NCBI GenBank assembly: GCA_947651225.1
Contig: CANSYK010000036.1
Location: 1 to 33,751, forward strand
From: an uncultured bacterium
GTDB taxonomy: Bacteria > Bacillota > Clostridia > Lachnospirales > Lachnospiraceae
DNA: 33,751 nt
Direction of reading: 5' to 3'
The first letter of the stretch is position 1. Each line of letters opens with the position of its first letter. Shown one piece after another: positions 4,803-33,751 of the stretch. The position numbers and the translations under genes are program-made. The notes below the pieces were generated by a model that did not search any database, had not been told where the DNA came from, and saw only the letters and a program-made list of their open reading frames with translations.

Positions 4803-4815
4803 ATAATGATTAAAA

Positions 4816-5607: not shown

Positions 5608-5609
5608 AA

Positions 5610-8180: not shown

Positions 8181-8664
8181 AACTTCTGATGGGACAATGC
8201 AGATTTCAGAGTAAACAGCCACTTCCAAAGCTGTGATTTTATTACAATTTTTCACTGTCTGAAGATACTCACAAGGAAATGAAGCAGGATTATCTTGCTA
8301 TGGCAATTACGGTAGTGGATATTGTCAATGGAGTAGCGTATCTGTTTGATAAAATATCCAACACAGATACTCAACATTGGAAAGCAGATTTGGAGTTAGA
8401 GCAGTTTCGGAATGTGTTATAGTAAACGCATAAAATACATGCGTTAACTATAATGGATGCGCACGGATACACATAGGAAGTTATGCTGCTTTGCAGCGTG
8501 TATCCGGCGCTGTAAACGAAGCTGTTTGTTTTGTACCAATTTATCTTTGATGCAAACACTTGGATCAAGACGGAGAGGGGAAGAAGCAGCAGACGAAGTG
8601 GAGGATATGGAGGAAGGGGATTGGGTTAATCATATAAGAAAATAAGTTTTTACTTTGTAACAAA
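8181..8664. other. gene-poor remnant stretch with two hairpins
   Basis: No intact gene. A frame at 8279-8422 (MKQDYLAMAITVVDIVNGVA..., 47 codons) reads like the C-terminal end of a helical protein; the frame continues upstream without a start to a TGA near 8233 and has no ribosome site. TATAGTAAACGCAT (8418-8431) pairs with 8439-8452 with one mismatch. CGGATACAC (8464-8472) pairs with GTGTATCCG (8498-8506) around GCTGC-TTT-GCAGC. A frame ending EEGDWVNHIRK at 8645 also looks like a coding tail. I read this as decayed DNA between module 1 and the toxin fragment. Confidence 0.5.
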
Positions 8665-12447: not shown

Positions 12448-12504
12448 ACGCAGTAGAATTTTTACGAATAATCGTTGTTTAGAGAGTTTAAGGGATTTTA
12501 TAGA

Positions 12505-13206: not shown

Positions 13207-14126
13207 TGGACAGATACATTGTATTAGTGGCAGTTATATTGGCGGGATGCGTTATAGTCTGCGTACTGCTAAAACGGTACTATCAAAACAGGATGGAAGC
13301 GGTTTATCAGGTGATGCTGCAGAAATTGGACAAAGCCATCAGAGGGGAAGTCCAGGATACTGTTTATGATGAGTCTATGGAGGCGGCAGTTGTGGAGCGT
13401 TTGAACAGAGTGGTTCAGATATCTGGAATGAACCAGGGGAGAGCGGAACAGGAAAGAGACATGATAAAATCTTTGATTTCCGATGTTTCTCATCAGGTGA
13501 GAACCCCTGTTACCAACATTATGCTGTATGCCGGGCTTTTGCAGGAGCAGGATTTAGATCGTGATTCTATGCGTTTGGCGGATAAAATTCAAAAGCAGTC
13601 TGACAAATTGGATTTTTTTATGAAAGAATTGGTGAAATCATCCTATGCAGAGCAGGAAATGATTGCGATTCATCCAGAAAAGACATGTGTGGAAGAAATC
13701 CTGAACACAGCTTGCCAAATGGTTGAACTGGCTGCAATAAAAAAGAAAATCAATATTGTTCTGGAAGAAATGGGGGCATATTGCTTTGCGGACAAAAAGT
13801 GGACAACGGAAGCGCTCGGAAATGTTTTGGACAATGCTGTCAAATATTCTCCTGAAAACTCTAATATAACAGTGAGCGTAATCCTATATGAGTCGTTTGT
13901 CTGTATTCAGGTAAAGGATCAGGGAATTGGAATCAGGGAAGAAGAGCAGGGGATGGTTTTTGAAAGGTTTTACCGTTCTAAGGATGTAAGCAGTGAGCCT
14001 GGCTTTGGAATTGGGCTTTATCTGGCAAGGGAAGTCCTTTCTAAACAAAACGGGTATGTAAAGATAAAATCTGAAATTGGAAAAGGCACTACAGTCCAAT
14101 TGTATTTATCACGTTATGAAGTATGA
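13206..14126 (+). CDS. histidine kinase with a single membrane helix, module 2
   Basis: A 306-aa kinase. There is one hydrophobic helix at residues 4-22, then a cytoplasmic coiled region and SDVSHQVRTPVTNIM with H96. The ATPase domain has NVLDNAVKYSPENS, KDQGIGI and GFGIGLYLAREV. The start at 13206 has GGGAG 8 bases before it; an upstream ATG at 13191 adds only five residues and no second helix. With one membrane helix and no outside domain, it has almost no means of sensing by itself, so it probably takes its signal from the partner permease, as in BceS-type systems. Confidence 0.9.
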   Translation: MDRYIVLVAVILAGCVIVCVLLKRYYQNRMEAVYQVMLQKLDKAIRGEVQDTVYDESMEAAVVERLNRVVQISGMNQGRAEQERDMIKSLISDVSHQVRTPVTNIMLYAGLLQEQDLDRDSMRLADKIQKQSDKLDFFMKELVKSSYAEQEMIAIHPEKTCVEEILNTACQMVELAAIKKKINIVLEEMGAYCFADKKWTTEALGNVLDNAVKYSPENSNITVSVILYESFVCIQVKDQGIGIREEEQGMVFERFYRSKDVSSEPGFGIGLYLAREVLSKQNGYVKIKSEIGKGTTVQLYLSRYEV

Positions 14127-14138
14127 ATATATATGAAC

Positions 14139-14166
14139 GCAGCCAGAATATGGCTGCATTTTTGTA
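14139..14166 (+). terminator. terminator between kinase and ABC genes, module 2
   Basis: GCAGCCA-GAATA-TGGCTGC is a perfect 7-bp stem followed by ATTTTTGTATTTT. It ends or attenuates the regulator-kinase transcript, so the ABC genes need their own promoter. Confidence 0.75.
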
Positions 14167-14190
14167 TTTTGGGAATATGTCAAAACTGTC

Positions 14191-14230
14191 ATCTTTCAGA
14201 AAGATTTGAGAAAGAATCTTTTGCTATTCT
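14191..14230 (+). promoter_or_regulatory. candidate operator and promoter of the module 2 ABC genes
   Basis: ATCTTTC-A-GAAAGAT (14191-14205) is a perfect palindrome. GAAAGA also repeats at 11-base spacing (14198 and 14209), as OmpR-family dimers prefer. TATTCT at 14225-14230 could be the -10, with no consensus -35, consistent with activation by the module 2 regulator. Confidence 0.45.
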
Positions 14231-14263
14231 AGAAAACGTAAAATCAAAGAAAGAAGGTGCGAT

Positions 14264-14959
14264 ATGAACATATTAACAACAGAAAATTTAAAGAAACATT
14301 ATGATATGGGTGAGATTCAGGTCAAGGCTCTGGACGGAATCAACCTTTTTGTGAGGGAAGGGGAGTTCCTTGCAATTGTAGGAACCTCCGGCAGCGGAAA
14401 ATCAACACTGCTGCATATGCTTGGAGGGCTGGATATTCCGACTTCCGGGAGAGTTGTGGTAGATGGTAAAGACATTTCTAAAATGGCAAAGGATGAACTG
14501 ACAATATTCCGTAGGCGGAAAATTGGATTTGTATTCCAAAATTATAATTTGCTTCCACTTATGAATGTGTATGAAAATATTGTCCTGCCAATTAAACTGG
14601 ATGGCTTAAAGCCCGACCAGGATTATGTAGAGCAGATCATTACACTGTTGGGGTTAAAAGAAAAGAAATATGCAATGCCTGGACAGCTATCTGGTGGTCA
14701 GCAGCAGAGAGTCGCCCTGGCCAGGGCGCTGGCAACAAAACCGGCTATTATTCTGGCTGATGAGCCGACGGGTAATCTTGACAGCCGTACCAGCCAGGAT
14801 GTTTTGGGACTGATGAAAACTACAGGGCAGCGATTTGGGCAGACGATCGTAATGATTACTCATAATGATGAAATTGCTCAGATGGCGGAAAGAATCATAC
14901 GTCTTGAAGATGGAAAAATTTGTGGAGGGGGAGATAGATATGCTGAAAGTGAAGAATAA
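14264..14959 (+). CDS. ABC transporter ATPase (MacB/BceA type), module 2
   Basis: A 231-aa ATPase with Walker [19 protein letters not shown]-loop, [15 protein letters not shown] signature, ADEPTGNLD Walker B and MITHND switch. It aligns closely with the module 1 ATPase over its whole length; the C-terminus (GGGDRYAESEE) is slightly longer. AAGAAGGTGCGAT precedes the ATG. The end overlaps the permease start by 20 bases, so the two subunits are made together. It powers the FtsX-type permease that follows. Confidence 0.93.
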   Translation: MNILTTENLKKHYDMGEIQVKALDGINLFVREGEFLAIVGTSGSGKSTLLHMLGGLDIPTSGRVVVDGKDISKMAKDELTIFRRRKIGFVFQNYNLLPLMNVYENIVLPIKLDGLKPDQDYVEQIITLLGLKEKKYAMPGQLSGGQQQRVALARALATKPAIILADEPTGNLDSRTSQDVLGLMKTTGQRFGQTIVMITHNDEIAQMAERIIRLEDGKICGGGDRYAESEE

Positions 14960-17456
14960 AAAAGTAGTCAGCGAAATAGCAAGAACCACTTATAGGGCAA
15001 ATAAAAAGAGAAATTTTCTTATGGTTTTTGCAATTTTTTTAACTACCTTTTTGATTGCAATTGTTTTAGCTCTTGGTGTGAGCTATTGGAATACTGTTTC
15101 CGAACGTCAGATTCGTATGCAGGGAATGGATTATGATATCGAGTTAAGCGAGCCAAGAGATGACCAGATAGAAAAAATCCGTTCTATGGACAATGTAGAA
15201 TATGTTGGTGTTGCAGTAAAATGTGCAATGATAGAACAATATCAGGATAAGTCACTGGACAAAACAAGGCTTTACTGGTTGGACGAAACCTGTTGGGAAA
15301 GACAGACAATTCCTGCCCTGGAAGGATACGAGGGAAAATATCCACAGGATGAAAATGAAATTATGCTTTCCAAGTATACACTGAAAGCTATGGGTATCCC
15401 CAAACCGGAAATTGGTATGAAACTTCCAGTCACTTACTTTACTTTGGAAGAAAGTTCGGATGAAGAACTTCTGAAAAAAGAGTTTACCCTTTGTGGATGG
15501 TATACAGATTATAGTGGGAGTCACAGAGGATATGTTTCAAAAGATTTTTTTGGAAAGACAGGTGTAAAGCAGACAGATTTTACGCAGGGTGCCTTGAAGA
15601 TTACGCTGAAAAATCCGTTATACTCTGAAAAGGATATTACTGCCATGCAGAATGAAATCAATATGGACCAGAATCAGTATATTGATGCTGATACAGATAC
15701 GATTTCCAATTTTTGTAAGATTGTAATTGGATTGGTTGTTATGTTACTTATGATTTTTGTGAGCGGATATTTGTTTATCTATAATACCTTATATATTTCT
15801 GTTTCAAAGGATATCCGATATTATGGGCAGCTTAAGACGGTTGGGATGACGTCCGTCCAGTTAAAGAGAATGGTGTATCAGCAAGCAGTCTGGAATGCTG
15901 TGGCTGGAATACCTCTTGGATTGGCTGCAGCATTTATGATTGCTAAAATAGTTATTCCACAGTTATTGCAGATTATAAATCCGGTATTTTCTGCCAGTGA
16001 TGTTGTGTCTGCAAAAATATGGGTATTTTTGACAGCAGGCTGCTTTGCATTTTTTACTAATTGGATTAGCTGTCAGAAGCCTGCTAAAATGGTGGGAGAA
16101 TGTTCTCCCATTGAAGCACTGCGGTATACTGCATGTACATGCAGAAAAAACAATTATAAGAGGGAAGGCGGCGGGGTATATTCTATGGCTTTGCAGAATA
16201 TGTTCCGGGATAAAAAGCAGGCTGTTGTTATTTTAACATCTTTTACGATTGCTATTTCTATATTTTTGGTTGTAAATGTAATTATCCATGAAAATGACGC
16301 AAAACGGATTTTAAACGAAACATATACTTATGATATGCAATTTAAAAATGAGACAACGCTCGATGATGACAAAAAGCAAATCATTACTGAGGATCGGATC
16401 TCCCAGATAGAACAGATAAATGGTGTAAAAAATGTAAGGAAAGTAACTTCCGCTGAAGTGGTAGTTCCTTATCAGGAAGAGGTATATGGAGAATATTATA
16501 AAGAACTCTATCAGTCAAGGTACAGCCCAGGAAATTATGAAGAAGATATGGAGTTATATCAGAAAGAACCGGAGAATGCTTATTTTACTTCACGCTTTAT
16601 TAGTGTGGATGAAGAAGGGTTTGGCCTTTTGAATGAAAGTATTGGGAACACACTGGACAAGAAGGCTTTTGAAGATGGAAAAATTGCTGTGGCGGTAAAG
16701 TTTTTGAGTTTTATGGAGGGGGATTATGGAATTCCTGGAAAGACCATACGCTTTTCGCTTCCAGACGGGAAAGAACCAGCAGAAGAATATAGTATTCAGA
16801 TAGCTGCCGCAGTGGATAACAGGTCAAATCCAGCCGTTTTTGCAGGGGGCATCACTCCTGATTTGATTGTCAGCGAAAAATATGCAAAAAAACTTATGGG
16901 GGAATTATTTACGGAATTGATTGATGTGCAATACGAAGATGCGTTTTCAAAAGGGACAGAAGAAAAAGTGAAAGCCGTTTTTGGAGATGAGCAGCAGATT
17001 TCGCATGAATCAAAATTAGAACGCTATGCTGATATGAAAAACTCGGAAACTACGGTGAAAGTATTAGGAAATAGCATTGGATTTATTATTGCAATGCTGG
17101 CAGTACTAAATTATCTGAATATGATGGCAGCAGGTGTGCAGAACCGTTCCAAGGAATTTGCGACGTTGGAAAGTATCGGGATGACGACAAAGCAGGCAAA
17201 GAAAATGCTGCGCATGGAAGGGATTGGGTATGCGGTAATCTCAACCATCATTTCGTTCATAGTAGGGCTTCCGATTAGTTATGCTGTTTTCGACGCCATG
17301 AATCTTTATCGGATTTCTTTTTCGGTTCCTTGGGGGAGTAATCTTATTTTGTTAGGTGTCACATTGGTTTTGTGCATGGTTGTACCTGTCTTTATTTATC
17401 AAAAGACCCAAAATGCCAGTATCATTAAGCGGCTTCAAAATGGGGATACAATCTGA
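14940..17456 (+). CDS. double-FtsX ABC permease, module 2
   Basis: An 838-aa permease with the same eight-helix plan as module 1: a helix at about 20-43, a first outer domain of about 220 residues, three helices, a helix near 430, a second outer domain of about 240 residues and three final helices. Shared landmarks are ISVSKDIRYYGQLKTVGMT and EFATLESIGMTTKQAKKM, against ISVIQDIQSYGQLKTLGTT and EFAMLQSIGMTGKQLKQM in module 1. The ATG at 14940 is chosen because GGAGGGGGAG is just upstream. The outer domains differ far more than the membrane parts, so the two modules may recognise different peptides. Confidence 0.9.
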   Translation: MLKVKNKKVVSEIARTTYRANKKRNFLMVFAIFLTTFLIAIVLALGVSYWNTVSERQIRMQGMDYDIELSEPRDDQIEKIRSMDNVEYVGVAVKCAMIEQYQDKSLDKTRLYWLDETCWERQTIPALEGYEGKYPQDENEIMLSKYTLKAMGIPKPEIGMKLPVTYFTLEESSDEELLKKEFTLCGWYTDYSGSHRGYVSKDFFGKTGVKQTDFTQGALKITLKNPLYSEKDITAMQNEINMDQNQYIDADTDTISNFCKIVIGLVVMLLMIFVSGYLFIYNTLYISVSKDIRYYGQLKTVGMTSVQLKRMVYQQAVWNAVAGIPLGLAAAFMIAKIVIPQLLQIINPVFSASDVVSAKIWVFLTAGCFAFFTNWISCQKPAKMVGECSPIEALRYTACTCRKNNYKREGGGVYSMALQNMFRDKKQAVVILTSFTIAISIFLVVNVIIHENDAKRILNETYTYDMQFKNETTLDDDKKQIITEDRISQIEQINGVKNVRKVTSAEVVVPYQEEVYGEYYKELYQSRYSPGNYEEDMELYQKEPENAYFTSRFISVDEEGFGLLNESIGNTLDKKAFEDGKIAVAVKFLSFMEGDYGIPGKTIRFSLPDGKEPAEEYSIQIAAAVDNRSNPAVFAGGITPDLIVSEKYAKKLMGELFTELIDVQYEDAFSKGTEEKVKAVFGDEQQISHESKLERYADMKNSETTVKVLGNSIGFIIAMLAVLNYLNMMAAGVQNRSKEFATLESIGMTTKQAKKMLRMEGIGYAVISTIISFIVGLPISYAVFDAMNLYRISFSVPWGSNLILLGVTLVLCMVVPVFIYQKTQNASIIKRLQNGDTI

Positions 17457-22772: not shown

Positions 22773-25700
22773 GAGGGCATACCGATGGTATGAACTTTGG
22801 TCTGGCGGCAGACGGAGGGCAGCTCATGAACAGCTATCCCAACTCAAGCACTTCCATGTCGGCACAGCAGGAGAAACTTTTAAGCTACTGCCTGTATTTT
22901 GGGTTTAACAGCAACAGCGCCACACAGCCGTCAAATGACCAGTGCGACCAGTTCATAGCGACGCAGGCAATGGTGTGGGTGATCGTGGGGAACCTGTTCG
23001 GCACTGGCAGCGGGGATTCCGCAGCAAGAAGAAAGCTGTGCGATACGGCTCCGAACCCGTCATCGTCCTATGATTATTATACAAGCCTGAAAAGCAACAT
23101 CAGCAAGTCTTATAATGCGATAAGACCGAGTTTTGCCAGCAGGACACAGAGCGGCGCTGAAACGTATGAGCTGAAATGGAATGAGGGGAACCAGCGTTTC
23201 GAGAAAACCCTTACTGAAAGTAACGGCGTACTTGGCAGTTTTGACATTTCGCTGAGCGGATACAAGGTGGAAAAGGACGGGAACAGCGTCACCATTTCCA
23301 GTAAGGAAGTGAACACGGCGGCAACGATGGCAACCATGAACTCCACGGCAGGCGAGGTAGAGACTACTTCAAGCTGTGTGTTCTGGCTTACGGAAAAAGC
23401 AAATTATCAGGAGTTTGTCTCGGAAAGACCGAGCGCCGATCCGATCCATGCCTATTTCAAGGTAAAGACGGAAAACATCGGCTATGGGGAAATCGTAAAG
23501 ACCGATGAGTCCAGCGGCGTGAAGCTGAAAGGAGCCGTATACGGCATTTATTCTGACAGCGGATGCACCAATAAGGTAGATACCATGACCACTGACGGTA
23601 ACGGTTATGCGAAATCCAGTGCGCTTGTGGCAGGAACCTACTATGTAAAGGAGATCACAGCACCGAAAGGATATGTACTGAGCGGCAAAGTCCACACACT
23701 GACCGTAAAGGCAGGGCAGACAACCGGGATCAGCGCAACGGACAAGGAGCAGCTTGGGGCAATCACCATTTATAAAGAGGGGGAAGTCCTGACCGGATGG
23801 AATGGCAGCAACTTCACTTATGAGAAAAAGAAACTGACGGGGGCTGTTTTCAAAGTGACGGCAGGCGCAGACATTTACAAGGCTGACGGCACGAAAGTCT
23901 ATAACAAAGGGGACTTAATCGCTGAAAACCTTGTGAGCGGAAGCGACGGAAAAGTGCTGTTATCAGACCTTCATCTTGGAACCTATATCGTGACAGAGAC
24001 AAAGAGCATTGACAGATACACTATCAACACCACACCGCAGACCGTAAAAATCGAGTATAAGGATCAGACGGTGGAAGTGCAGTATGAAGGGGCAACCGTC
24101 CTGAATGCCAGACAGAAAGCGGAAGTTTCCGTTACAAAGAAAGATTCTGAAACAACAAACCCGCTGGATGGAGGACGGCAGCGCCGCTTACACGGTAGAC
24201 CTTCCAATCGCAAACAGCTACTATATTTCAGAGACACAGGCTCCTTACGCATATTACAGGAACAGTTCTGACGTCTACAGCTTTGCGTTCAATTATCTGC
24301 CGGAGACAACTGCAAAGGCAGCGTTTACCCACACGTTCAAAAATGACAGGACAACCGCAAAAATCCATATCTACAAGGTGGATAAAGAGACAGGCAAGGC
24401 AGTTCCGCAGGGAGACGCAAAGCTGGAGGGCGCAGTCTATGGTCTGTATGCCCGTGACGATATTGCACACCCGGATGGCGCAACAGGCATTATCTTCCAT
24501 GCAGGGGACCTTGTTGCGACAATGACAACGGATGCGGGCGGCAATGCAGAGGTAAAGAACCTCTATCTCGGCAACTACTATGTAAAGGAAATCACACCGT
24601 CAGAGGGGTATCTCCTCGATGAAGAAGAACATGATGTTGTATGCGATTATGAGGGCGATCTGGTAGCGGAAGTGTCAAGAAGCACAACATCGCCGGAGCA
24701 GGTCATCAAGCAGCCGTTCCAGCTTATCAAGGTGTCAGACAACGGGGACGACACCGAAGCGCCTGTATTGTCCGGCGCAGGCTTTACCGCATACCTGAAA
24801 TCTTCCTTATCCGTACTGGAAGATGGAAGTTATGATTTTGACAGCGCAAAACCTGTTGAAATCGGCAGCAAGGGGGGAAACTACCCTTTTCACGGATGCA
24901 AAGGGGCATATCGTGACACAGCCGATCCCTTACGGGACTTATGTGGTGGTTGAGACAGTCACACCGCATAACATGCGCCAGTAAGACCTTTTGAAGTGAG
25001 GATTGTGGAGAACCACCCGACAGAGCCGCAGGTATGGCGTGTATTCATTGACCGTGAATTTACCGCAAAGCTGCGTGTAATCAAGAAGGACGCTGACACA
25101 ATGCAGACAGTCCTTATCCCGAATACGGAGTTTAAGATTTTCAACCTTGACAAGAACGAGTATGTCAAGATGGTTACAACTTATCCGTCAAAGGTTACGC
25201 ACACTTCTTTCTTCACGGACGAAGATGGCGACTTGATCCTGCCTGATGTTTTGAAGATTGGAAATTACCGCATTGAGGAAGTGAAAGCGCCTTTCGGATA
25301 TGTGCTGAACACAAATTATGTGGAAGTGTCGGTTGATTCCGATACGTTCTATGAGACTGATCCTGACACTTATGATGCAATCATTACTGTGGAATATGAG
25401 GACGAACCAGTTGTCGGGGAACTGACAGTTGAGAAGAAAGGCGAAATCCTTGACGGCTACAAGGGCAGCTTGTTTGCTGATTCTGACGAAAAGGAGTTCA
25501 TTTATAAGGAAGGCTCCCTTGAAGGGGCAGAGTTTGAAGTCTATGCTGCTGAGGATATTTTTACAGCAGACATGCAGAAGGACGAAAACGGAAACAGGAC
25601 AAAGTATTACAGCAAGGGCGATCTTGTTGCAACGCTCACAACCGGGGAAGATGGGAAAGCAAGCATTTCAGGACTTCCGCTCGGACAGTACCGTGTAGTG

Positions 25701-26293
25701 GAAACAGAAGCGCCTTATGGATATGTGCTGAACGGGGAAGAGCAGCTTGTAACATTCGTCTATGTGGACGATAAAACCCCGGTGATCCATGAAAGCGTGA
25801 CATTTACCAATGACAGACAGAAACTGGATATGTCCGTCATTAAGAAAGATGCAGAGGAAGATACCCCGGTTGCAGGTGCAGCATTCGGACTGTATGCGGC
25901 AGAGGACATTGAAAATGCCAGTGGGGAAGTAATCATTGAAGCAGGCACACTTCTTGAAACCGCTGTCTCTGACGAAAACGGCAGGATCACTTTCAAAAAG
26001 GATTACCCGTTTGCAGTTTATGAGGTAAAGGAACTGGAAGCGCCGAAAGGCTATGTTTCCAGTGGGGAAGTCATTACTTTTGAGACGGAGTACCAGGGAC
26101 AGCATGAAGCAGTTGCAGAGTACAGCAGCGAATTTCTGAATGAGCCTACAACCTTTGAATTTACAAAGGAGGATATTGCAAGCGGCGCAGAGCTTTCCGG
26201 TGCGATGCTTACCGTCATTGACAAGGACGGCAGCGTGGTTGACAGATGGACTTCCGTGGCAGAAGAAGCCCATGTGATCAAGAGATGTAGGAC
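22769..26293 (+). pseudogene. Cna-B/SpaA-type pilin or adhesin with thioester domain, multiply disrupted
   Basis: The frame opens inside an N-terminal thioester-type domain: FIATQAMVWVIVGNLFG keeps the TQ glutamine, but the part that would carry the partner Cys is gone. At least five Cna-B repeats follow, each with a Lys near the start (VKTDESSGVKLKGAVYGIY, VEKKGEILDG, VIKKDAEEDTPVAG) and a Y-x-V-x-E-x-x-A-P-x-G-Y end. Breaks: an internal deletion with shift near 24165; an extra G in the six-G run at 24872-24877; a missing base near 24976-24979; and loss of the 3' end near 26285, including any sortase signal and anchor. The intact ancestor would be a surface-anchored adhesin. The pieces 22790-24271 and 24996-26414 are open individually. 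Confidence 0.9.
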
Positions 26294-26341
26294 GGATTTT
26301 GCGGACATTCAAAATAAAAATGAATGTGGAGGAAACAGACA

Positions 26342-26785
26342 ATGGCAAAGACGATTTTTGAGGAACTGGGCGGCAAATATGAACGGCAAGGCGATTACTT
26401 ACTACCGTGCTTGACTGTACCCGCCGAAGAAGAACAGCCGATAGGCACATGGGGACGGCGGCATCTGGACTATCTGAAGCAGTACCACAAAGTTACATAC
26501 ACCAATCTGCTCACAAGCGGCAGGCTGAACACTTACCTTGCCGACATCGACAGGCAGGCGCAGGAACGCTTTGAAAGGCTCATAGAGGGCATGAAACAGG
26601 CGCAGGGCATAACGGAACAGCTAAAGGAAGAAAACGCCTTAGAATGGACAGGGCGACACAATAATGTGTGGGCTTGTGCACGGGAAGTTGTGGAAAGGGA
26701 AATCATATATTCATATATTTATATATTGCAAATAATAATCAGGGGCAAGGATATTTCCTTGCTCCCTCTGTATATAAAATGTTGA
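26342..26785 (+). CDS. tnpV: TnpV-like transposon protein with an unusual C-terminal run-on
   Basis: Begins MAKTIFEELGGKYERQGDYL and continues PIGTWGRRHLDYLKQYHKVT and YTNLLTSGRLNTYLADIDRQ, the signature of TnpV proteins of Tn4451-type and related elements. Family members are about 120-130 aa and end shortly after the AREVVEREI motif; here the frame runs on for about 27 residues (SYIYILQIIIRG...) into AT-rich DNA, so the natural stop was lost at a junction near 26705. GTGGAGG lies about 9 bases before the ATG. The role of TnpV in transposition is not established. Confidence 0.8.
   Translation: MAKTIFEELGGKYERQGDYLLPCLTVPAEEEQPIGTWGRRHLDYLKQYHKVTYTNLLTSGRLNTYLADIDRQAQERFERLIEGMKQAQGITEQLKEENALEWTGRHNNVWACAREVVEREIIYSYIYILQIIIRGKDISLLPLYIKC
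26742..26765 (+). terminator. hairpin inside the tnpV run-on
   Basis: GGGGCAAGGA (26742-26751) pairs with TCCTTGCTCC (26756-26765) around TATT, with one wobble. It lies before the lanF promoter and could insulate it from upstream transcription, though no long U-tract follows. Confidence 0.4.
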
Positions 26786-26797
26786 ATAAAATGGTAT

Positions 26798-26832
26798 ATC
26801 TTTATGAAATCTTCAAAACTGTACAGTACCCT
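26798..26832 (+). promoter_or_regulatory. LanR-type regulated promoter 1 (lanF)
   Basis: ATCTTTATGAA-ATCTTCAAAA: two ATCTT half-sites with 11-base spacing (26798 and 26809), the geometry of OmpR-family activators such as NisR or SpaR at lantibiotic promoters. Eight bases after the box lies TACCCTTTT as a candidate -10. The same 21 bases recur exactly at 31496-31516 with the same spacing to TACTATTTT. Confidence 0.7.
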
Positions 26833-26866
26833 TTTCCTATCAAAATCAAGAAAGGAAATGAACACT

Positions 26867-27562
26867 ATGGATTTCATATTGAAAACAACAAATCTTAGTA
26901 GGAATTTTGGAAAACATTCAGCTGTAACGGATGTATCAATCCACGTACGGGAAAAAAGTGTTTACGGACTATTAGGTCCGAACGGGGCAGGAAAATCTAC
27001 AATCCTAAAGATGGTAACAGGTATGCTCCGTCCAACATCTGGCATGATTGAATTTGCCAGCCATGCATGGAACAGACAGGACTTAAAGCATATTGGGGCT
27101 TTGATAGAAAATCCCCCTTTATATGAAAATTTGACGGCATTTGAAAATTTAAAAGTAAGGACTATTTTGTTAGGTTTACCAGAGCAGCGAATAAATGATG
27201 TATTAAAAATTGTAGATTTGCAAAATACAGGAAAGAAAAAGGCAGGACAATTCTCAATGGGAATGAAACAGCGGTTGGGGATTGCAATAGCATTGCTGAA
27301 TCATCCATCTTTGTTAATTCTGGATGAGCCAACAAACGGATTAGACCCGATTGGTATCGGAGAATTGCGAAACTTAATCCGTTCATTTCCACAGCAAGGG
27401 ATAACAGTTATATTGTCAAGTCATATTCTTTCGGAGGTACAGCTTATTGCAGATGACATAGGCATTATTGCAAACGGTACGCTTGGATATGAAGGTGAAA
27501 TGCAGCGTAGTGGAAATCTTGAGGAACTGTTTCTCAAAGTCGTTGAAGAAAGCAGGAGGTAA
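26867..27562 (+). CDS. lantibiotic immunity ABC ATPase (LanF)
   Basis: A 231-aa ATPase: Walker A LGPNGAGKST (about 38-47), signature FSMGMKQRLGIAIALL, Walker B LLILDEPTNGLDP and switch His in LSSHILSEV. In place of the usual Q-loop Gln it has Glu in GALIENPPLYENL; this E-loop is a known mark of LanF immunity ATPases. The start at 26867 has AAGGA 9 bases upstream; an ATG three codons earlier is also possible. With LanE and LanG it forms an exporter that removes lantibiotic from the membrane, as NisFEG or CprABC do. First gene after promoter 1. Confidence 0.92.
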   Translation: MDFILKTTNLSRNFGKHSAVTDVSIHVREKSVYGLLGPNGAGKSTILKMVTGMLRPTSGMIEFASHAWNRQDLKHIGALIENPPLYENLTAFENLKVRTILLGLPEQRINDVLKIVDLQNTGKKKAGQFSMGMKQRLGIAIALLNHPSLLILDEPTNGLDPIGIGELRNLIRSFPQQGITVILSSHILSEVQLIADDIGIIANGTLGYEGEMQRSGNLEELFLKVVEESRR

Positions 27563-27566
27563 CAGG

Positions 27567-28316
27567 ATGAAAAAATATATACGCTCCGAATGGATGAAAC
27601 ACAGACGGACTTTTGTAATGAAACTTCTTATCCTTGCCCCTGTTATTACGCTGCTTATGAATGTGTTTGCACCAATGTGGTATCAGCAAAATTCATTTAA
27701 CTGGTGGTATATTTTGCTTTTCCCAGGCTGCCTTACTTTGCTTTGTACAATATGCGAGCAGCGGGACGGGGGAAAGATGAAATACAGAAGCCTTATTCCT
27801 CTTTCCATAAAGCTTGAAAATGTCTGGATTGCAAAAGCGACTGTTATATTGCTTTTTGACATTGCAGCAAATTTAGTATTCTTAAGTTTGAATATGCTTG
27901 GCGGCGTGGCAGTTTTCCTTATTTACGAAATTCCAATCAGTATATCGCTGATTCAGGCTACAGCGGGCATCTTTTGTATTATTGTGGCATCTATGTGGGA
28001 AATACCAGTCTGCTTGTGGCTGTCGAAAAAGGTTGGTGCATTTGCAACAGTTGTGATAAATGCAGGAATAGGCTCATTCTTAGGGGTAGCACTGGCGAAT
28101 ACTAAGTTTTGGATTTTTTGCCCGTATAGTTGGATATCCCGTTTAATGGTTCCTGCAATTGGGATATTGCCAAACGGTGTACCTGTTTCTGAAGAAGCAG
28201 GTAATTTACCAGTGCCAGTTGCGATGATTGTTTTAGCATTACTGTTTTCCGTGATACTAAGTTTCACTTTGCTAAGGCTCAGTGCTAAAAGTTTTTCACA
28301 GCAGGAGGTAAAATAG
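27567..28316 (+). CDS. lantibiotic immunity ABC permease (LanE/MutE family)
   Basis: A 249-aa membrane protein with six predicted helices. The opening MKKYIRSEWMKHRRTFVMKL and the WWYILLFPGCLTLLCTICEQ segment are typical of LanE/MutE/EpiE permeases. GCAGGAGGTAACAGG lies before the ATG, four bases after the lanF stop. Its last codon overlaps the lanG GTG. It acts as one half of the membrane channel of the LanFEG immunity exporter. Confidence 0.9.
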   Translation: MKKYIRSEWMKHRRTFVMKLLILAPVITLLMNVFAPMWYQQNSFNWWYILLFPGCLTLLCTICEQRDGGKMKYRSLIPLSIKLENVWIAKATVILLFDIAANLVFLSLNMLGGVAVFLIYEIPISISLIQATAGIFCIIVASMWEIPVCLWLSKKVGAFATVVINAGIGSFLGVALANTKFWIFCPYSWISRLMVPAIGILPNGVPVSEEAGNLPVPVAMIVLALLFSVILSFTLLRLSAKSFSQQEVK

Positions 28317-29059
28317 TGAGAACAATATTAAGGTGTATAAGAGCGAATTGTCTTAAAACGAAGCGTTCTATACTGAATGTTATTTATGTACTTGTCCCTT
28401 TTGTATTGGCTTTGGCATTTGCAGGCTATTTTCATATTTCAAATTGGGACAGGACACTTAAGATAAGTGCTTTTCTTGAAATGATGGGTATCATATATCC
28501 GTTTTTGATTGGAATCACCGTGGGAATCATTGCACAGCAGGAAAGTCGGGCAGGACAGTATCAATTTATATTGAGTGCTGTCCCGTCAAGGGTAAGCGTT
28601 TATATCGGGGAAATATGTTTCTTACTGATAAATTCCTTATTATTTTGTGTAGTTGCTGTTGCCTGTTTTTCACTCCTTTTTCCGTTTGCTTCCATAAATG
28701 GCTGCATTCAGATTATAGGGCTTCTGCTTTTAGGTACTGCCCCTATATATCTGATACATTTCCTGTGTGCTTTCATGTTTGGTAAAAGTGCTTCTATGGG
28801 GCTTGGAATAGCAGGAAGTTTATTGGCGGCAATTATGCTCACGGGTTTAGGGGATATATGTTGGCAATATATTCCGTGGGCGTGGAGCGTCCGCTTTATG
28901 GATTTCTGGTGTCTTTCTGTCACGGACAGGAATGCTTATTTGCAGAGTTGCAATTCATTTTACGGTGGGATTATAATAAATGTAATGGTGGTGCTTGTGT
29001 TGTTTGCTATCGGCATTATTTGGATTAAGTTATGGGACGGAGGAAAAGAAAATGATTAA
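28316..29059 (+). CDS. lantibiotic immunity ABC permease (LanG/MutG family)
   Basis: A 247-aa permease starting with GTG that shares a base with the lanE stop; CAGGAGGTAAAATA is the ribosome site. MRTILRCIRANCLKTKRSIL followed by YPFLIGITVGIIAQQESRAG is characteristic of LanG/MutG. Six membrane helices are predicted. It overlaps the lipoprotein start by 8 bases. Second permease half of the LanFEG exporter; the subfamily specificity (nisin-, gallidermin- or salivaricin-like) cannot be read from sequence. Confidence 0.9.
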   Translation: MRTILRCIRANCLKTKRSILNVIYVLVPFVLALAFAGYFHISNWDRTLKISAFLEMMGIIYPFLIGITVGIIAQQESRAGQYQFILSAVPSRVSVYIGEICFLLINSLLFCVVAVACFSLLFPFASINGCIQIIGLLLLGTAPIYLIHFLCAFMFGKSASMGLGIAGSLLAAIMLTGLGDICWQYIPWAWSVRFMDFWCLSVTDRNAYLQSCNSFYGGIIINVMVVLVLFAIGIIWIKLWDGGKEND

Positions 29060-29420
29060 GAAAATGCTGTTGGTATGTGTATGTCTGATAGCTTTAAGTG
29101 TCTGTTTCACGGGCTGCAATAACAATCAAATATTGGATACGGCTGATAAGAATAATACGCTGAATGACACTCTTCCAAAATATGAGCTGAATACTGCTGA
29201 TTATACGGAGATAAGCTTTGACGGAAAGACATACGCCATTACAGAAAGAACAACAAAAGCTTCTGATTTAGGTGAAGAAATTGGGCAGGTTTCTCAAAAC
29301 ATCACAACGGTTGAAGGAGATAAATTGCGGTATGGATATGTTTATATGCTTGAGGGAACAACGGATATTGCAGTAAATATCAATGAAAAATATTTTATTG
29401 CAGAATTGACAGATAAATAA
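29052..29420 (+). CDS. lantibiotic-immunity-type lipoprotein (NisI/SpaI-like by position)
   Basis: A 122-aa lipoprotein: signal MIKKMLLVCVCLIALSVCFT, lipobox F-T-G-C with the lipidated Cys at about 22. The mature part (LPKYELNTADYTEISFDGKT, then ITTVEGDKLRYGYVYMLEG) is a small beta-rich domain. GGAGG precedes the ATG. Location between lanG and lanR fits an immunity lipoprotein that captures lantibiotic outside the membrane. NisI is about twice as long, so this is a short member; I assign the role by context. Confidence 0.75.
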   Translation: MIKKMLLVCVCLIALSVCFTGCNNNQILDTADKNNTLNDTLPKYELNTADYTEISFDGKTYAITERTTKASDLGEEIGQVSQNITTVEGDKLRYGYVYMLEGTTDIAVNINEKYFIAELTDK

Positions 29421-29433
29421 AGGAGGATTTAAA

Positions 29434-30105
29434 TTGGCACGGTTGTTGGTAATTGACGATGAAAAAGCCATTCTTGACTTAGTTAAGAATGGCTTGGAAA
29501 AAGATGGTCATATTGTTGCTATATGTGGAAGTGCAACGGATGTTGCGGTAGACCGCTTGAAAGATTACGATTTGATTTTGTTAGATATTATGATGCCAGA
29601 TGTTGATGGATTCATGTTTTGCAAAAAAATCCGAGGGCTTGTGGATTGTCCGATTCTGTTTCTTACTGCAAAGGTTTTGGAAACAGACATCATCTACGGG
29701 TTAGGATTAGGGGCTGATGATTATATTACAAAACCTTTTCGAATAGGAGAACTGAGAGCCCGTGTTTCTGCCCATCTGCGGCGGGAAAGGCGGGAGCATC
29801 ATAACACTTTAGGATTTGAGCAGGAAATCAAGTTTGATTTGTCCTCAAAGGAACTATCTGTAAAAGGGGAAAAAATCAGCTTAACCAAAAGTGAATATGA
29901 GATTTGCGAGTATTTAGCCAGAAACAGCGGACAGGTATTCACAAGGGAACAGATTTATGAAGCGGTCTTTGGGTTTGACGGTGACAGTGATGATTTGACA
30001 ATCGCAACACATATAAGAAATATCCGCAGTAAACTGGCGGGATACGGCATTGCTCCGATTAATACAGTCTGGGGGGTTGGATACAGATGGGAAAGGCAAA
30101 ATTGA
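29434..30105 (+). CDS. OmpR-family response regulator of the lantibiotic cluster (LanR)
   Basis: A 223-aa regulator starting with TTG at an excellent AAAGGAGGATTTAAA site. The receiver has D8/D9, phospho-acceptor D51 in LILLDIMMPDVDG, T78 and K100. The winged helix ends INTVWGVGYRWERQN, of the NisR/SpaR/CprR style and distinct from the BceR-type regulators of the two other modules. It overlaps the kinase by 19 bases. The expected targets are the ATCTT-type boxes at 26798 and 31496. Confidence 0.92.
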   Translation: MARLLVIDDEKAILDLVKNGLEKDGHIVAICGSATDVAVDRLKDYDLILLDIMMPDVDGFMFCKKIRGLVDCPILFLTAKVLETDIIYGLGLGADDYITKPFRIGELRARVSAHLRRERREHHNTLGFEQEIKFDLSSKELSVKGEKISLTKSEYEICEYLARNSGQVFTREQIYEAVFGFDGDSDDLTIATHIRNIRSKLAGYGIAPINTVWGVGYRWERQN

Positions 30106-31454
30106 TTTCATTGCAAAAAGTTTTCTGGAGATTTTTAATCATTTTGATATCAGGTCTGTTCCTGTCAGTGGCACTTCCCTTCCTGCTTCTTGCACTGGCT
30201 TCAAGTGCAGGGTATGTGACCTATGCCAATAATGCGGAACATTCCGTGCAAAAAATATCTCCAATCATTGCTGCAGCTCCAGATATTACAAAAGTTGCCA
30301 TCCCATCCTATTGTGAATATTTAATACTTGATACAGATTACAACATCCTTTATACAAATATGGATGTAACAGAACAGAGCAATGCATTAAAATTTGCAAA
30401 AACTGGAGAAAACAGTGACCTCACAAGCAGGACGCAATATCAATTCATACCGAGGGAAGAAGAATATTGTGTATTAAAATATTATGTAGGCTCACAGTAT
30501 AAAAGTGACTGGATGCAGAAATATTTACCCGCCCCCGAAACCCTGTTGTTGATGCTCATAGGAATCAACTGCATTGCCGTTTGCGTTTTTTTGACGCTGC
30601 GATATTCCAAAAAGCTGAAAGTACAGTTAGCACCGTTGACTATGGCTACAGAACAAATTCAGTATCAGAATCTTGACTTTGAAGTGGGAAGTTCCGAAAT
30701 AAGCGAGTATAACGCAGTACTGTACTCCATTTCAAAAATGAAAGACAGTTTAAAATCATCTTTAGAGCAGCAATGGAAAATAGAACAATTACAAAGAGAA
30801 CAGATTGCAGCACTTTCCCATGATTTGAAAACACCTTTGACAGTAATTCAAGGCAATATAGATTTAATAAGCGAAACAAAGCTTGATGATGAACAACAGT
30901 TGTATGCGAAGTATATTACAGAAAGTTCGGAACAGATGCAGTTGTATATTAGAACCTTAATTGATATATCCCAGACGGTTACGGGGTATCAGCTGCATTT
31001 AGAAGATATTGACCTAATTAAATATATGAAGCGGATTGAATCGCAGGCAAATTCATTGTGTATTATAAATGGGATATGTCTGCACATGGAAATAGGAACA
31101 AGTGAAGGATATTTCAAAGCAGATAAATTGTTGTTGGAACGGGCAATTATGAACGTCATTCACAATGCGTTAGACTATTCGCCACAAGGAGGAAACCTTT
31201 ATGTAACAGCACAGAAAGCTGACGGATTTCTGAAAATATCTGTAACCGATGAAGGAGATGGCTTTACTCCCGAAACATTGCATCATGCAAAGGAACAGTT
31301 TTTTATGGGAAACAGAAGCCGAAATTCAAATCTGCATTTTGGTCTGGGACTTTATATTACAAACACTATTGTTACTCAGCATAATGGACAGCTCATATTA
31401 GAAAATTCTTCTGAAACAAAAGGCGGACAAGTCACAATTAAAATTCCATATTAG
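30087..31454 (+). CDS. sensor histidine kinase of the lantibiotic cluster (LanK, NisK-like)
   Basis: A 455-aa kinase with two membrane helices (about 14-38 and 152-171) enclosing an outside sensor domain of about 110 residues, the NisK/CprK layout and unlike the loop-free kinases of modules 1 and 2. The phospho-acceptor is H245 in AALSHDLKTPLTVIQGN. The ATPase domain has NVIHNALDYSPQGG, TDEGDGF and HFGLGLYITNTIV. The start at 30087 lies within the end of lanR. It is intact, so direct sensing of a lantibiotic outside the cell is expected. Confidence 0.92.
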   Translation: MGKAKLISLQKVFWRFLIILISGLFLSVALPFLLLALASSAGYVTYANNAEHSVQKISPIIAAAPDITKVAIPSYCEYLILDTDYNILYTNMDVTEQSNALKFAKTGENSDLTSRTQYQFIPREEEYCVLKYYVGSQYKSDWMQKYLPAPETLLLMLIGINCIAVCVFLTLRYSKKLKVQLAPLTMATEQIQYQNLDFEVGSSEISEYNAVLYSISKMKDSLKSSLEQQWKIEQLQREQIAALSHDLKTPLTVIQGNIDLISETKLDDEQQLYAKYITESSEQMQLYIRTLIDISQTVTGYQLHLEDIDLIKYMKRIESQANSLCIINGICLHMEIGTSEGYFKADKLLLERAIMNVIHNALDYSPQGGNLYVTAQKADGFLKISVTDEGDGFTPETLHHAKEQFFMGNRSRNSNLHFGLGLYITNTIVTQHNGQLILENSSETKGGQVTIKIPY

Positions 31455-31462
31455 AATTTCAT

Positions 31463-31493
31463 GGGCGATGCAAATAGTATCGCTCATTATTTT
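31463..31493 (+). terminator. terminator after lanK
   Basis: GGGCGAT (31463-31469) pairs with ATCGCTC (31479-31485) with one wobble, followed by ATTATTTTTAATC. It closes the lanF-to-lanK operon immediately before promoter 2. Confidence 0.65.
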
Positions 31494-31495
31494 TA

Positions 31496-31530
31496 ATCTT
31501 TATGAAATCTTCAAAAATAGCCTGTACTAT
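31496..31530 (+). promoter_or_regulatory. LanR-type regulated promoter 2, with no lantibiotic gene behind it
   Basis: Exact copy of the 21-base double ATCTT box of promoter 1, then eight bases and TACTATTTT as -10. A ribosome site (GTGAAAGGATG) follows at 31538, yet the reading frames after it are a 20-codon MKCCPPNKKNDVSVSRFAVL (31551-31613) and a longer frame rich in R/F, neither with a lantibiotic leader or Ser/Thr/Cys-rich core. I infer that a structural gene was replaced at a junction near 31550-31560. Confidence 0.7.
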
Positions 31531-31616
31531 TTTGAAAGTGAAAGGATGAAATGAAATGTTGCCCACCAAACAAAAAAAACGATGTTTCGGTGAGCCGATT
31601 TGCCGTGCTTTGAACA

Positions 31617-31654
31617 CTCTCCGACTTCGCTTTTTGGAGTTTGGAGAGATTTTT
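31617..31654 (+). terminator. hairpin and U-tract after promoter 2
   Basis: CTCTCC (31617-31622) pairs with GGAGAG (31643-31648), followed by ATTTTTT. It would stop most transcripts from promoter 2 after about 110 bases. The GGAGAG arm also serves as a possible ribosome site for the 31656 frame. Confidence 0.5.
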
Positions 31655-31655
31655 T

Positions 31656-31784
31656 ATGTCCTTTTTTCGGGCGGTCATCCATCTGCTCATACAAAGTAAA
31701 GTTTATCAATACATAGCATATCGGGGATTAACAGGAAGCCAGTTAAAAAAATCCCTGCCTATGCAACGCTACTTCTCACCATGA
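31656..31784 (+). CDS. 42-aa basic small protein
   Basis: GGAGAG lies 7 bases before the ATG. The product starts MSFFRAVIHLLIQSKVYQYI and continues YRGLTGSQLKKSLPMQRYF; the G-L-T-G-S-Q-L-K-K piece looks like a small recognition helix. The stop overlaps the ATG of the 77-codon frame (ATGA). No known function; it probably belongs to the conjugative-element backbone. Confidence 0.4.
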   Translation: MSFFRAVIHLLIQSKVYQYIAYRGLTGSQLKKSLPMQRYFSP

Positions 31785-32014
31785 AACCAGAAGTAGAATC
31801 TCCACTTAACAGAATATATATCTCCTATAACCGTAGAGGTCACAGAGCCTTTGCGGTTTTTCTTTTGTCGTTTTTTATCGGAATGTGCCGCAGGGCTGTT
31901 TCTGCTGTTGGCTGTCGTTCGCCGCTCTCTCCATCTGGATTAGTTTTACGGCTGTTAAACTGCAATCTTCTTGACTTAAAGGTCAAGAAGCAGCGCAGGC
32001 AGAAGCCTGCTTAA
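31781..32014 (+). CDS. 77-codon frame in the structured leader of the sigma-like gene
   Basis: Coupled by ATGA to the 42-aa frame but without its own ribosome site. The product (MKPEVESPLNRIYISYNRRG...) has one hydrophobic stretch (FAVFLLSFFIGM) and a very basic end (KVKKQRRQKPA). The last third overlaps the two hairpins at 31967-32010. It may be a leader reading frame whose translation affects the hairpins rather than a functional protein. Confidence 0.3.
   Translation: MKPEVESPLNRIYISYNRRGHRAFAVFLLSFFIGMCRRAVSAVGCRSPLSPSGLVLRLLNCNLLDLKVKKQRRQKPA
31967..32010 (+). promoter_or_regulatory. tandem hairpins before the sigma-like gene
   Basis: CTTCTTGAC-TTAAAG-GTCAAGAAG (31967-31990) and GCAGGC-AGAA-GCCTGC (31995-32010) are two adjacent perfect stems ending 11 bases before GGGAGG of the next gene. 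They resemble an attenuator leader: translation of the overlapping 77-codon frame would open them. Confidence 0.5.
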
Positions 32015-32035
32015 TTCAGATGGGAGGTACTTACG

Positions 32036-32551
32036 GTGAAGTATACACCAAGAAAAGTATATATCAAAGAAAATAACGTCTATGTGGAGTTATCCTACAC
32101 GGACTTTTGCCGCCGCAGGCAAGCCGACCAGAGTTACATGGACAAGCTGTTTATCCCCGTGCAGGGTTGCCTGCTTGAAGTCGTGCGGGAACAGTACACG
32201 GATTTCTATCGGGATAAAGAACGGTGGCGTTATCTGAAAAAACTGGACACAAACCACAGCCTTCTGTCATTGGAAAGATTTACGGAAAGTGAGGGAAATG
32301 TGATTGACTTCGTTGTTGATGAAGCGGTGGACGTTGCAGAAACCGTTATCCATGCGGCGATGGTGGACAGGCTGAAATCCGCCCTGCCCTTATTGTCAGG
32401 CAGTGAACAGGCATTGATAAACGCAATCTTCTTTGAGGAACTTTCCGAGAGGGAAGTCGGGTTGCGGTTAGGCGTGACACAGAGCGTTGTGAACAAGCGC
32501 AAAGCCAAAATCCTTGCGAAGCTGAGAAAGATAATGGAAAACAAAATTTAA
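32036..32551 (+). CDS. sigma-70 region-4-like protein 1 (conjugative element)
   Basis: A 171-aa protein starting with GTG; GGGAGG lies 8 bases upstream. The C-terminal 50 residues form a sigma region-4 type helix-turn-helix: LINAIFFEELSEREVGLRLG, then TQSVVNKRKAKILAKLRK. The N-terminal part (MKYTPRKVYIKENNVYVELS, FCRRRQADQSYMDKLF) lacks a recognisable region 2. Such proteins are common in Tn1549/Tn916-like elements, often annotated as sigma factors; their promoter targets are unknown. It is closed by the terminator at 32559. Confidence 0.8.
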   Translation: MKYTPRKVYIKENNVYVELSYTDFCRRRQADQSYMDKLFIPVQGCLLEVVREQYTDFYRDKERWRYLKKLDTNHSLLSLERFTESEGNVIDFVVDEAVDVAETVIHAAMVDRLKSALPLLSGSEQALINAIFFEELSEREVGLRLGVTQSVVNKRKAKILAKLRKIMENKI

Positions 32552-32558
32552 GGCGTTC

Positions 32559-32600
32559 AGCCCCCTTGTTTTTTCCTTTGGGAAAATGAGGGGGCTTTTC
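32559..32600 (+). terminator. terminator after sigma-like gene 1
   Basis: AGCCCCCT (32559-32566) pairs with AGGGGGCT (32589-32596), with an inner TTCC/GGAA pairing, followed by TTTTCCC. A strong GC-rich stem. Confidence 0.75.
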
Positions 32601-32638
32601 CCTGCCCTCTCAATCAATTCTGATTGGAGGAAATAAGG

Positions 32639-33064
32639 ATGGCATACAACCACGGACGGGAGGACAGGAAATGGCGTATCTGGAAAGAAGCCGAGGAAAA
32701 AATTCTGCGTGAGTGCGGCGTTGATGAAGCAACCATTGAGCAAATCCGCACAGACGACAGGGCAGATTTTAATTCCAACAGGCGGTTTTACCGATGGGCG
32801 AGCGACTTCGGCGAATACCTTGAGGGCATGGCGGACAGGGAGAAGCAGGCGGAGGTAAAGTCTGTTTCTGATTTACTGGACGAGATTGAGAACGAAACTC
32901 TGTACCTTGCCTTAATCACGGTGGACAGGCGCACGTTACAAATTGTCCTGCTGAAAATGCAGGGCTATTCCACAAAGGAGATTGCCCCGCTTGTGCATTT
33001 AACGGCAGGGGCTATTTATGCGAGGTTAAACCATCTGCGGAAGAAGCTGCGGAAAATTTTATAA
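32639..33064 (+). CDS. sigma-70 region-4-like protein 2 (conjugative element)
   Basis: A 141-aa protein, MAYNHGREDRKWRIWKEAEE at the start and a C-terminal helix-turn-helix MQGYSTKEIAPLVHLTAGAI followed by YARLNHLRKKLRKIL. The start at 32639 is chosen over a TTG five codons earlier because the GGAGG ribosome site covers the TTG. It has its own terminator at 33103, so each of the three related genes seems to be a separate unit. Probably a regulator of element genes. Confidence 0.78.
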   Translation: MAYNHGREDRKWRIWKEAEEKILRECGVDEATIEQIRTDDRADFNSNRRFYRWASDFGEYLEGMADREKQAEVKSVSDLLDEIENETLYLALITVDRRTLQIVLLKMQGYSTKEIAPLVHLTAGAIYARLNHLRKKLRKIL

Positions 33065-33102
33065 GCGTCTCATATATCCTGCTTTCCTATGGGCTATCGG
33101 GT

Positions 33103-33132
33103 GGGGAGAGAAAAACTCTCTCCTACTTTTTA
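33103..33132 (+). terminator. terminator after sigma-like gene 2
   Basis: GGAGAG (33105-33110) pairs with CTCTCC (33118-33123) around AAAAACT, followed by TACTTTTTAG. Confidence 0.65.
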
Positions 33133-33147
33133 GCAGGAGGAAAGGAA

Positions 33148-33620
33148 ATGGCATACGGGGCAAAGACATACACGCTTCGGGAGGAATCCACGGAAAGCGG
33201 CAAAAGGTATTTTATCAGCTTTAAGGACGGGCAGGGGGAACACCACAAACTGGAAGTGTCAGAACAATTATTCATTGAATTTCGGCAGATGGAACGCAGG
33301 AACAGGAACCTTCAGCAATGGAACCAGCGGCACAGGGAGTTTAACGAGGTGTGGGACGAAACGCTTTACAGACGTGCGTTGCGTGTTCCTAAAACGCTTG
33401 ATGAAAGCATGATTGAAAAAGAACGGAATGAACTGTTTTACAAAGCGGTTGCCCGGCTGCCAGAGATACAAAGGCGGCGTTTCCTGCTCTATACGAGTAT
33501 GATTTCAATTTTTACCAAATCGGCGAAATGCAGCATTGCACCGCTTCCGCTGTCCAGAAGTCTGTTTCGGTTGCAAGGGAGAAAGTCAAGGCAGAAATGA
33601 GGAAGTATCTCCAACCGTGA
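33148..33620 (+). pseudogene. sigma-70 region-4-like protein 3, frameshifted
   Basis: GCAGGAGGAAAGGAA precedes the ATG. The protein runs MAYGAKTYTLREESTESGKR to RLPEIQRRRFLLY in one frame; after about 33491 the family continues in another frame as YEYDFNFYQIGEMQHCTASA, then VQKSVSVAREKVKAEMRKYL and a stop at 33618-33620. One base is missing near 33492. The shift removes the recognition helix of the C-terminal helix-turn-helix, so the uncorrected product should not bind DNA. The unshifted frame ends at 33600 with unrelated residues. Confidence 0.8.
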
Positions 33621-33751
33621 CCGCCACCATCCGAAAAAGAAATCCGTTTTGCGTGGGATTGGCGGCATTACATACTCTCACTTTTTCCGTGGGAGTAGAA
33701 GAAATTGTTCGGACAGTTGAAACTCGATGTACGGGAGATATTAAGTACACT
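33621..33751. other. non-coding tail of the window
   Basis: No start codon with a ribosome site is seen. It contains a near-perfect short hairpin (ACTCTCAC-TTTTTCC-GTGGGAGT, about 33675-33697). In related elements a recombinase gene often follows, but none begins before the window edge. Confidence 0.4.

Follow-up and report, generated by a model that had tools for sequence, protein, structure and literature searches.

What is a complete set of lantibiotic immunity and sensing genes doing beside a promoter that appears to belong to a lantibiotic gene, when no such gene follows it? The question is raised by a stretch of 33,751 nucleotides (contig CANSYK010000036.1 of GenBank assembly GCA_947651225.1; hereafter, the window) from an uncultured bacterium placed in the Lachnospiraceae, which carries the cassette lanF-lanE-lanG-lipoprotein-lanR-lanK (FEG-I-R-K) between two promoters, P1 and P2. 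We consider it very probable that this cassette is the immunity-and-sensing part of a nisin-type class I lantibiotic cluster, cut after the promoter of the structural gene lanA (PlanA) and held as cargo in the slot between a TnpV gene and the sigma genes of a mobile element, that P2 is the retained PlanA, and that the set senses and protects against a lantibiotic made by a neighbour.

Gene Content and Promoters of the Cassette

The features of the cassette, with expectation values (E) from the profile searches, are:

26798–26818, plus strand: box 1, a NisR-type TCT-N8-TCT direct repeat of promoter P1 (PlanF), with the -10 hexamer TACCCT at 26827–26832
26867–27562, plus strand: lanF, ATP-binding cassette (ABC) ATPase of the lantibiotic protection family (TIGR03740, E 3.2e-112, 373.6 bits against a cut-off of 309.75)
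27567–28316, plus strand: lanE permease (TIGR03732, MutE/EpiE, E 9.1e-63, above cut-off)
28316–29059, plus strand: lanG permease (TIGR03733, MutG, E 5.7e-55, above cut-off)
29052–29420, plus strand: lanI-like lipoprotein with a SpaI/NisI C-terminal domain (PF18218, E 4.2e-10; NF033433, E 1e-11; both above cut-off)
29434–30105, plus strand: lanR, OmpR-family response regulator (PF00072 and PF00486)
30087–31454, plus strand: lanK, sensor histidine kinase (PF00512 and PF02518, HisKA/HATPase)
31461–31487, plus strand: intrinsic terminator-like stem after lanK, of 11 pairs and a T tail, lying between lanK and box 2
31496–31516, plus strand: box 2, an identical TCT-N8-TCT site of promoter P2, the probable PlanA without lanA, with the -10 hexamer TACTAT at 31525–31530
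31517–31560, plus strand: remnant 5′ leader from box 2 to the cargo border, compared with four related loci (L004, L005, L008, L010)

All six genes are open and intact in family profile searches (26867–31454), in agreement, coordinates included, with the first-pass annotation of this DNA. The LanF ATPase and the MutE- and MutG-family permeases lie in one operon and form a LanFEG immunity transporter; in the alignment, the Q-loop position of LanF is occupied by the stretch GALIENPP, which we take to be the E-loop. The lipoprotein carries a lipobox, FTGC, recognised by eye, and is of the SpaI/NisI immunity type, with PF18218 and NF033433 matches that cover just 41–43 profile positions. An OmpR regulator and a histidine kinase beside FEG, together with TCT-N8-TCT repeats at the promoters, identify the regulation by sequence as NisRK-type. 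Named LanK relatives come from Lachnospiraceae bacteria (96% identity over the full length, 99% over part), and the host bacterium is probably a gut commensal.

The 21-base box, ATCTTTATGAAATCTTCAAAA, is exact at both 26798–26818 and 31496–31516. Parsed as TCT-TTATGAAA-TCT, it fits the TCT-N8-TCT repeat that the cited text defines for NisRK promoters (PMC9958725). Both -10 hexamers begin 14 nucleotides beyond the second TCT, which bears out the earlier description of a double box before lanF and again after the lanK terminator, each with a TAC-type -10 at the same spacing. In 100 shuffles, no box match at up to 3 mismatches appeared. The genome of the window (G000; 4.38 Mb, 167 contigs, 96.7% complete) holds only two copies within 2 mismatches and one more at 3, the reversed control giving one match at up to 3; the box is thus not a common genome repeat, a doubt that had been raised at first pass. 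Because the same two positions carry boxes in other genomes, the pair is not a product of chance. Behind P2, a ribosome-site-like AAAGGA is present in the window and L004, and absent from L005, L008 and L010; as had been noticed, P2 in the window ends in this site and is followed by element DNA, from ∼31561.

The Place of P2 and the Missing Synthesis Genes

Two clusters that bear lanA locate P2 within a full lantibiotic cluster. Genome G682, from the same family, has on one strand lanB-T-C-R-K, PlanA, lanA1-3 and, past a terminator and a box at 2 mismatches, lanF-E-G, where the three genes after lanK are nisin/gallidermin-like lanA genes by eye. Between lanK and lanA1 of this genome lies TCT-N8-TCT-N14-TATATT, the same layout as P2. 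A Priestia aryabhattai plasmid (NZ_CP129012.1, L207) has lanF-E-G-R-K, a gap of 414 bases, and then lanA-T-C-B. P2 occupies the place of a lanA promoter, because lanA directly follows lanK in both clusters, and on these comparisons P2 is most likely a PlanA lacking its lanA.

The genes for synthesis were not found. There was no match for LanC (PF05147) or LanB (PF04738) in G000 and no lanA-like match in the window, which is consistent with the first-pass view that the cluster lacks a lantibiotic gene: this is not a class I biosynthetic cluster, and with FEG and RK present and no LanB or LanC match in a 96.7% complete genome, it is an orphan nisin-type immunity island. LanB matches occur in 2 of 397 family genomes, at full length in G682 and as two weak pieces in G104, while a LanC match occurs in 11 of the 56 genomes with a box, a LanR relative or both; judged by contig numbers, only G082 has its LanC match and its LanR on one contig. 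Of the explanations first offered, loss of lanA leaving an immunity island responsive to neighbours' lantibiotics fits best, given the lanA-bearing clusters, the lack of LanB and LanC matches and the rarity of the box.

A hidden lanA was rejected. When two of the three lanA peptides of G682 were used in a tblastn search, they returned just the copies of G682 itself and chance matches (E 2 or worse). G082 carries LanM and LanR on one contig, but its lanM lies 7 kb past lanK, behind genes unrelated by eye.

Several observations weigh against this interpretation. The Priestia plasmid shares the gene order without having TCT-N8-TCT-N14-TANNNT at its two promoters, and the G682 LanR and LanK are 55 and 30% identical to those of the window. 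A lanA-bearing cluster with the LanR-LanK subtype of the window and an identical box was not found, nor did tblastn detect a lanA remnant in the window. Among 11 loci with LanR relatives, a box stands before lanF at up to 3 mismatches in three (G015, G192, G289) and at 4 in one (G250:C4), while G148, G076 and G282 have lanF and no box at up to 5 mismatches; the remaining four (G166, G164, G057, G237) have no whole lanF in the stretch.

A Cargo Slot in a Mobile Element

On either side of the cassette lie features of a mobile element:

26324–26785, plus strand: TnpV gene, bordering the cargo slot on the left (PF14198, E 2.3e-44)
31561–31941, plus strand: backbone adjoining the cargo slot, with a hairpin, two terminator-like stems and a 42-codon frame (backbone search and folding)
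∼31615–31655, plus strand: first terminator-like stem (folding)
∼31829–31858, plus strand: second terminator-like stem (folding and pattern)
32036–32551, plus strand: first sigma-70 region-4 gene 3′ of P2 (PF04545, above cut-off)
32624–33064, plus strand: second sigma-like gene (PF08281, E 2.3e-05, below the curated cut-off)

On the left, DNA common to records with other cargo stops at ∼26715. On the right, a query of 31517–32036 matched in 36 of 299 family genomes, and among the 53 backbone places listed, 23 begin at 31561–31564, just past the P2 leader, and five at 31614; one weak match of 31 bases (G146, E 3.8e-4) falls within the leader. In the backbone copies inspected, P2 is absent from the 90 bases preceding the border, which consist of other DNA. 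In the Enterococcus faecalis plasmid pE509-3, tet(O) fills this slot, with TnpV on one side and the sigma genes on the other. Since these borders are shared with elements bearing other cargo, including tet(O), the cargo spans ∼26716 to 31560, and P2 closes it, because the backbone that elsewhere flanks tet(O) starts at ∼31561. The shared border and the tet(O) in the same slot mark the cassette as mobile-element cargo, with the relaxase and recombinase read in L005 and not in the window, whose contig stops at 33751.

A second backbone type, with another hairpin, borders P2 in G243, G138, G550, G617, L039 and G527. A query from this backbone matched in 22 of 200 genomes; five of the listed places begin at query bases 10–15, where the hairpin starts, and the others at 26–28 or later, apart from two at base 1, both in G138. 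Both backbones (window 31561–31941; L027 ∼7790–8300) open at the cargo border with an A-rich-loop hairpin, and a sigma-like gene lies further on. In both, the border has the appearance of a slot whose cargo can be swapped, tet(O) and the lan set being examples. P2 is seen in four right-hand contexts, namely the backbone of the window, the second backbone, G202 and G171, while in G599 the start of P2 is followed by the contig end.

The first-pass annotation had suggested that P2 might drive 20- or 42-codon frames of the element. For the 42-codon frame (31656–31784), this finds no support: the frame is backbone, present with or without P2, and carries no coding signal. Of its 12 distinct copies, seven are full-length; in these seven, variable sites fall evenly on codon positions 1, 2 and 3 (13, 11 and 12), and the copies show 79 synonymous and 222 non-synonymous codon differences. 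A conserved small RNA from P2 was likewise rejected, as the hairpin at ∼31561–31600 and the terminators belong to backbone also found without P2; an Rfam search of 26700–33751 gave no matches at gathering thresholds.

Distribution of the Cassette

The box was found at up to 1 mismatch in 12 of 299 family genomes, including G000, and the reversed control in one. In all 11 others, a box ends 45–49 bp upstream of a lanF match. Two boxes at this threshold are present in four of the 12 (G000, G138, G202, G243), and G171 has its second box at 2 mismatches. The second box was not seen in the remaining seven (G104, G176, G225, G250, G263, G264, G289), among which G225 has a contig that ends short of lanK and G176 a broken cluster. 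In this broken relative (L034, 9102–10155), box 1, a partial lanF and the lanK end are kept, the middle is gone, and box 2 is unrecognisable after the terminator.

Extending the search to the order at up to 2 mismatches gave matches in 25 of 392 genomes. The reversed control also matched six, so many of the single matches are attributable to chance; further lan-linked box pairs come from G527, G550, G599 and G617. A search with LanK returned nine loci, of which six retain the lanK 3′ end (L004–L008, L010), and box 2 is present within 1 mismatch in every one of these. The other three are cut or rearranged within lanK (L009, L011) or are a distant actinobacterial match (L012). Viral contigs held no LanK relative, one box-bearing cluster fragment (L039), one unrelated box match (L038) and six LanF relatives at no more than 47% identity, and all 16 phage records match the flanks only.

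From this arrangement, a mechanism can be proposed. LanK would sense a nisin-like lantibiotic from a neighbour, and phosphorylated LanR (LanR~P) would bind the TCT-N8-TCT boxes. Expression of FEG, RK and the lipoprotein from P1 would then rise, and the cell would be protected by the pump together with the lipoprotein. In the window, P2 probably starts just a short RNA, one that would be stopped by the backbone terminators at ∼31655 or ∼31858.

Conservation of P2 and Alternative Explanations

If lanA is gone, what has become of its promoter? One comparison sets the window against L005, whose border is the same: the box and -10 are identical at 26 of 27 positions and the rest of the spacer at 25 of 38, so that conservation is higher in the P2 core than in its spacer. 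In the same comparison, 4-fold third-base sites of lanK are identical at 56 of 121, yet 347 of 455 residues are, and lanK thus appears constrained. Across relatives, the core TCT-N8-TCT-N14-TANNNT is intact in all 18 distinct lanF-linked P1 60-mers, whereas TCT or spacing is damaged in three of 12 distinct P2 copies (TCT to ACT in L008, TCT to TTT in L010, and a spacer one base shorter in L064/L068). These counts are drawn from sites within 3 mismatches, where 51 distinct box-like 60-mers divide into 18 linked to lanF, 12 linked to the lanK end and 21 assigned to neither; two of the 21 (L053, L058) resemble lanF promoters and were left out. Two more lanF-linked boxes, at 4–5 mismatches (L113, L161), carry TCC in the core.

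The alternative that fares best, at a little under an even chance, is that P2 has no function and is a slowly decaying leftover of independent lanA losses, each so recent that the promoter is still in a good state. The core changes confined to P2 agree with this, as does the fact that P2 is missing from several relatives (G289, G104, G250, G264). In a 26-row LanR+LanK tree, the P2 label changes at least four times, which points to repeated loss of lanA or P2, or to recombination of clusters; P2 here means box 2 by pattern, and G682 is therefore coded without it although PlanA stands there. Recent loss is harder to reconcile with the P2-to-backbone border common to the window and L005, since lanA was then probably gone before the two split, and the P2 core has stayed nearly identical while 4-fold sites of lanK diverged. 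This argument weakens if recombination has made the right end younger than lanK.

An improbable alternative is that P2 has been re-used. Without lanA, it could carry LanR-controlled transcription into the sigma-like and mobilization genes, so that a foreign lantibiotic would stir the element to move, much as tetracycline is employed to increase the expression and the excision of Tn916 (PMC11658703). Nothing in the cargo lies beyond P2, which faces the downstream element genes, its core is better kept than the spacer, and behind it L005 has on one strand three sigma-like genes, AAA_25, a Mob_Pre relaxase, ParB and a serine recombinase. A consensus scan of the plus strand at 31380–33700, which also misses P2 itself, gave no sigma-70 promoter-like site. 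Between P2 and the first sigma gene, however, stand the two terminator-like stems, whose stability is alike in lan-carrying and other backbones (nine distinct rows, with the window's own copy, L002, grouped under the others), the exceptions being L004, where the first stem is weakest, and L004 and L006, in which the pattern finds no second stem. The downstream context also varies, with one sigma-like frame in G243, no sigma frame of 90 codons in G138, a winged-helix regulator (by eye) in G202 and a gene on the opposite strand in G171, and the core or spacing is damaged in a quarter of the distinct copies.

Less probable still is that box 2 sets a threshold or acts as a decoy, titrating LanR~P that would otherwise reach P1. 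An intact LanR-type site with no conserved product, in several contexts, would suit such a role, but a decoy has no need of the TANNAT hexamer, which 11 of the 12 distinct P2 copies keep at promoter spacing.

Finally, movement of the cassette by recombination between the boxes as direct repeats is very unlikely: the DNA upstream of box 1 does change abruptly between some clusters (16 of 45 positions identical between the window and L005), but a repeat of 21 bp is short for homologous recombination to act on, neither a circle nor an empty site with one box was seen (no search was aimed at either), and the boxes are accounted for as PlanF and PlanA.

Other Features of the Contig

Elsewhere in the window, 3064–8180 and 12475–17456 each hold a module in which a response regulator and a histidine kinase are joined by an ABC ATPase and a long FtsX-type permease (858 and 840–863 residues). 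Pfam searches identify the response regulator, HisKA/HATPase and FtsX components, on the same 34-kb contig as the immunity set, and the modules are reminiscent of the BceRS-BceAB peptide-detoxification modules. At 22790–26414, the gene of a large SpaA/thioester-domain surface protein is seemingly split over three frames (22790–24271, 24105–24953 and 24996–26414), the last of which runs towards TnpV. Near the left contig edge, on the minus strand at 912–1808, lies a Mutator-type transposase gene (PF00872, positions 26–303 of 379) with an apparently shortened end.

Comparison With Known Systems

Retention of a two-component system and FEG pump without synthesis genes is known from Lactococcus lactis. 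In one survey, nisRK-FEG without nisin synthesis genes occurs in 59 of 710 strains, which in general show a mild delay in nisin; these orphan strains tolerate nisin, and nisin-induced tolerance has been proposed (PMC7965974). Unlike those strains, the window has a lipoprotein gene, the order FEG-I-R-K, an extra PlanA-like promoter, a mobile-element slot and a probable Lachnospiraceae host. The nisin O cluster of Blautia obeum is closer in content: as described in the cited text, it has an operon, PnsoFEGIR1K1, with the same FEG-I-R-K content and a separate PnsoA, and lantibiotic immunity genes without a cluster are reported there in Lachnospiraceae (PMC11811420). By the same description, the window is set apart in being without the structural, R2K2 and BTC genes (PMC11811420).

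The class I cluster of the Priestia plasmid, like the window, places lanF-E-G-R-K before the lanA position, and differs in its lanA-T-C-B genes and in the layout of its two promoters, as set out above. In nisin O, nsoA presumably follows nsoK1 as well. A similar orphan set is found in the class Bacilli, on an Enterococcus faecium plasmid (NZ_CP035221.1; L171, 5427–10455), where pcfF-pcfE-lanG-RK has the order F-E-G-R-K, no biosynthesis gene listed in a 14.9-kb stretch and an adjacent sigma-70 gene. Unlike in the window, that sigma gene lies upstream, no lipoprotein gene is listed and IS1216 is nearby; its LanK is 34% identical.

In the open-licence literature, we found no publication on a kept lanA promoter or on lantibiotic-induced transfer. 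The window indicates that a nisin-type sensing-plus-immunity unit spreads on mobile elements, in a slot that elsewhere holds tet(O), which bears on the resistance of commensals to their neighbours' lantibiotics. Orphan lantibiotic immunity with its own sensor is already published; what is unusual here is the kept, geneless lanA promoter, which offers a simple testable case of a regulator target minus its gene.

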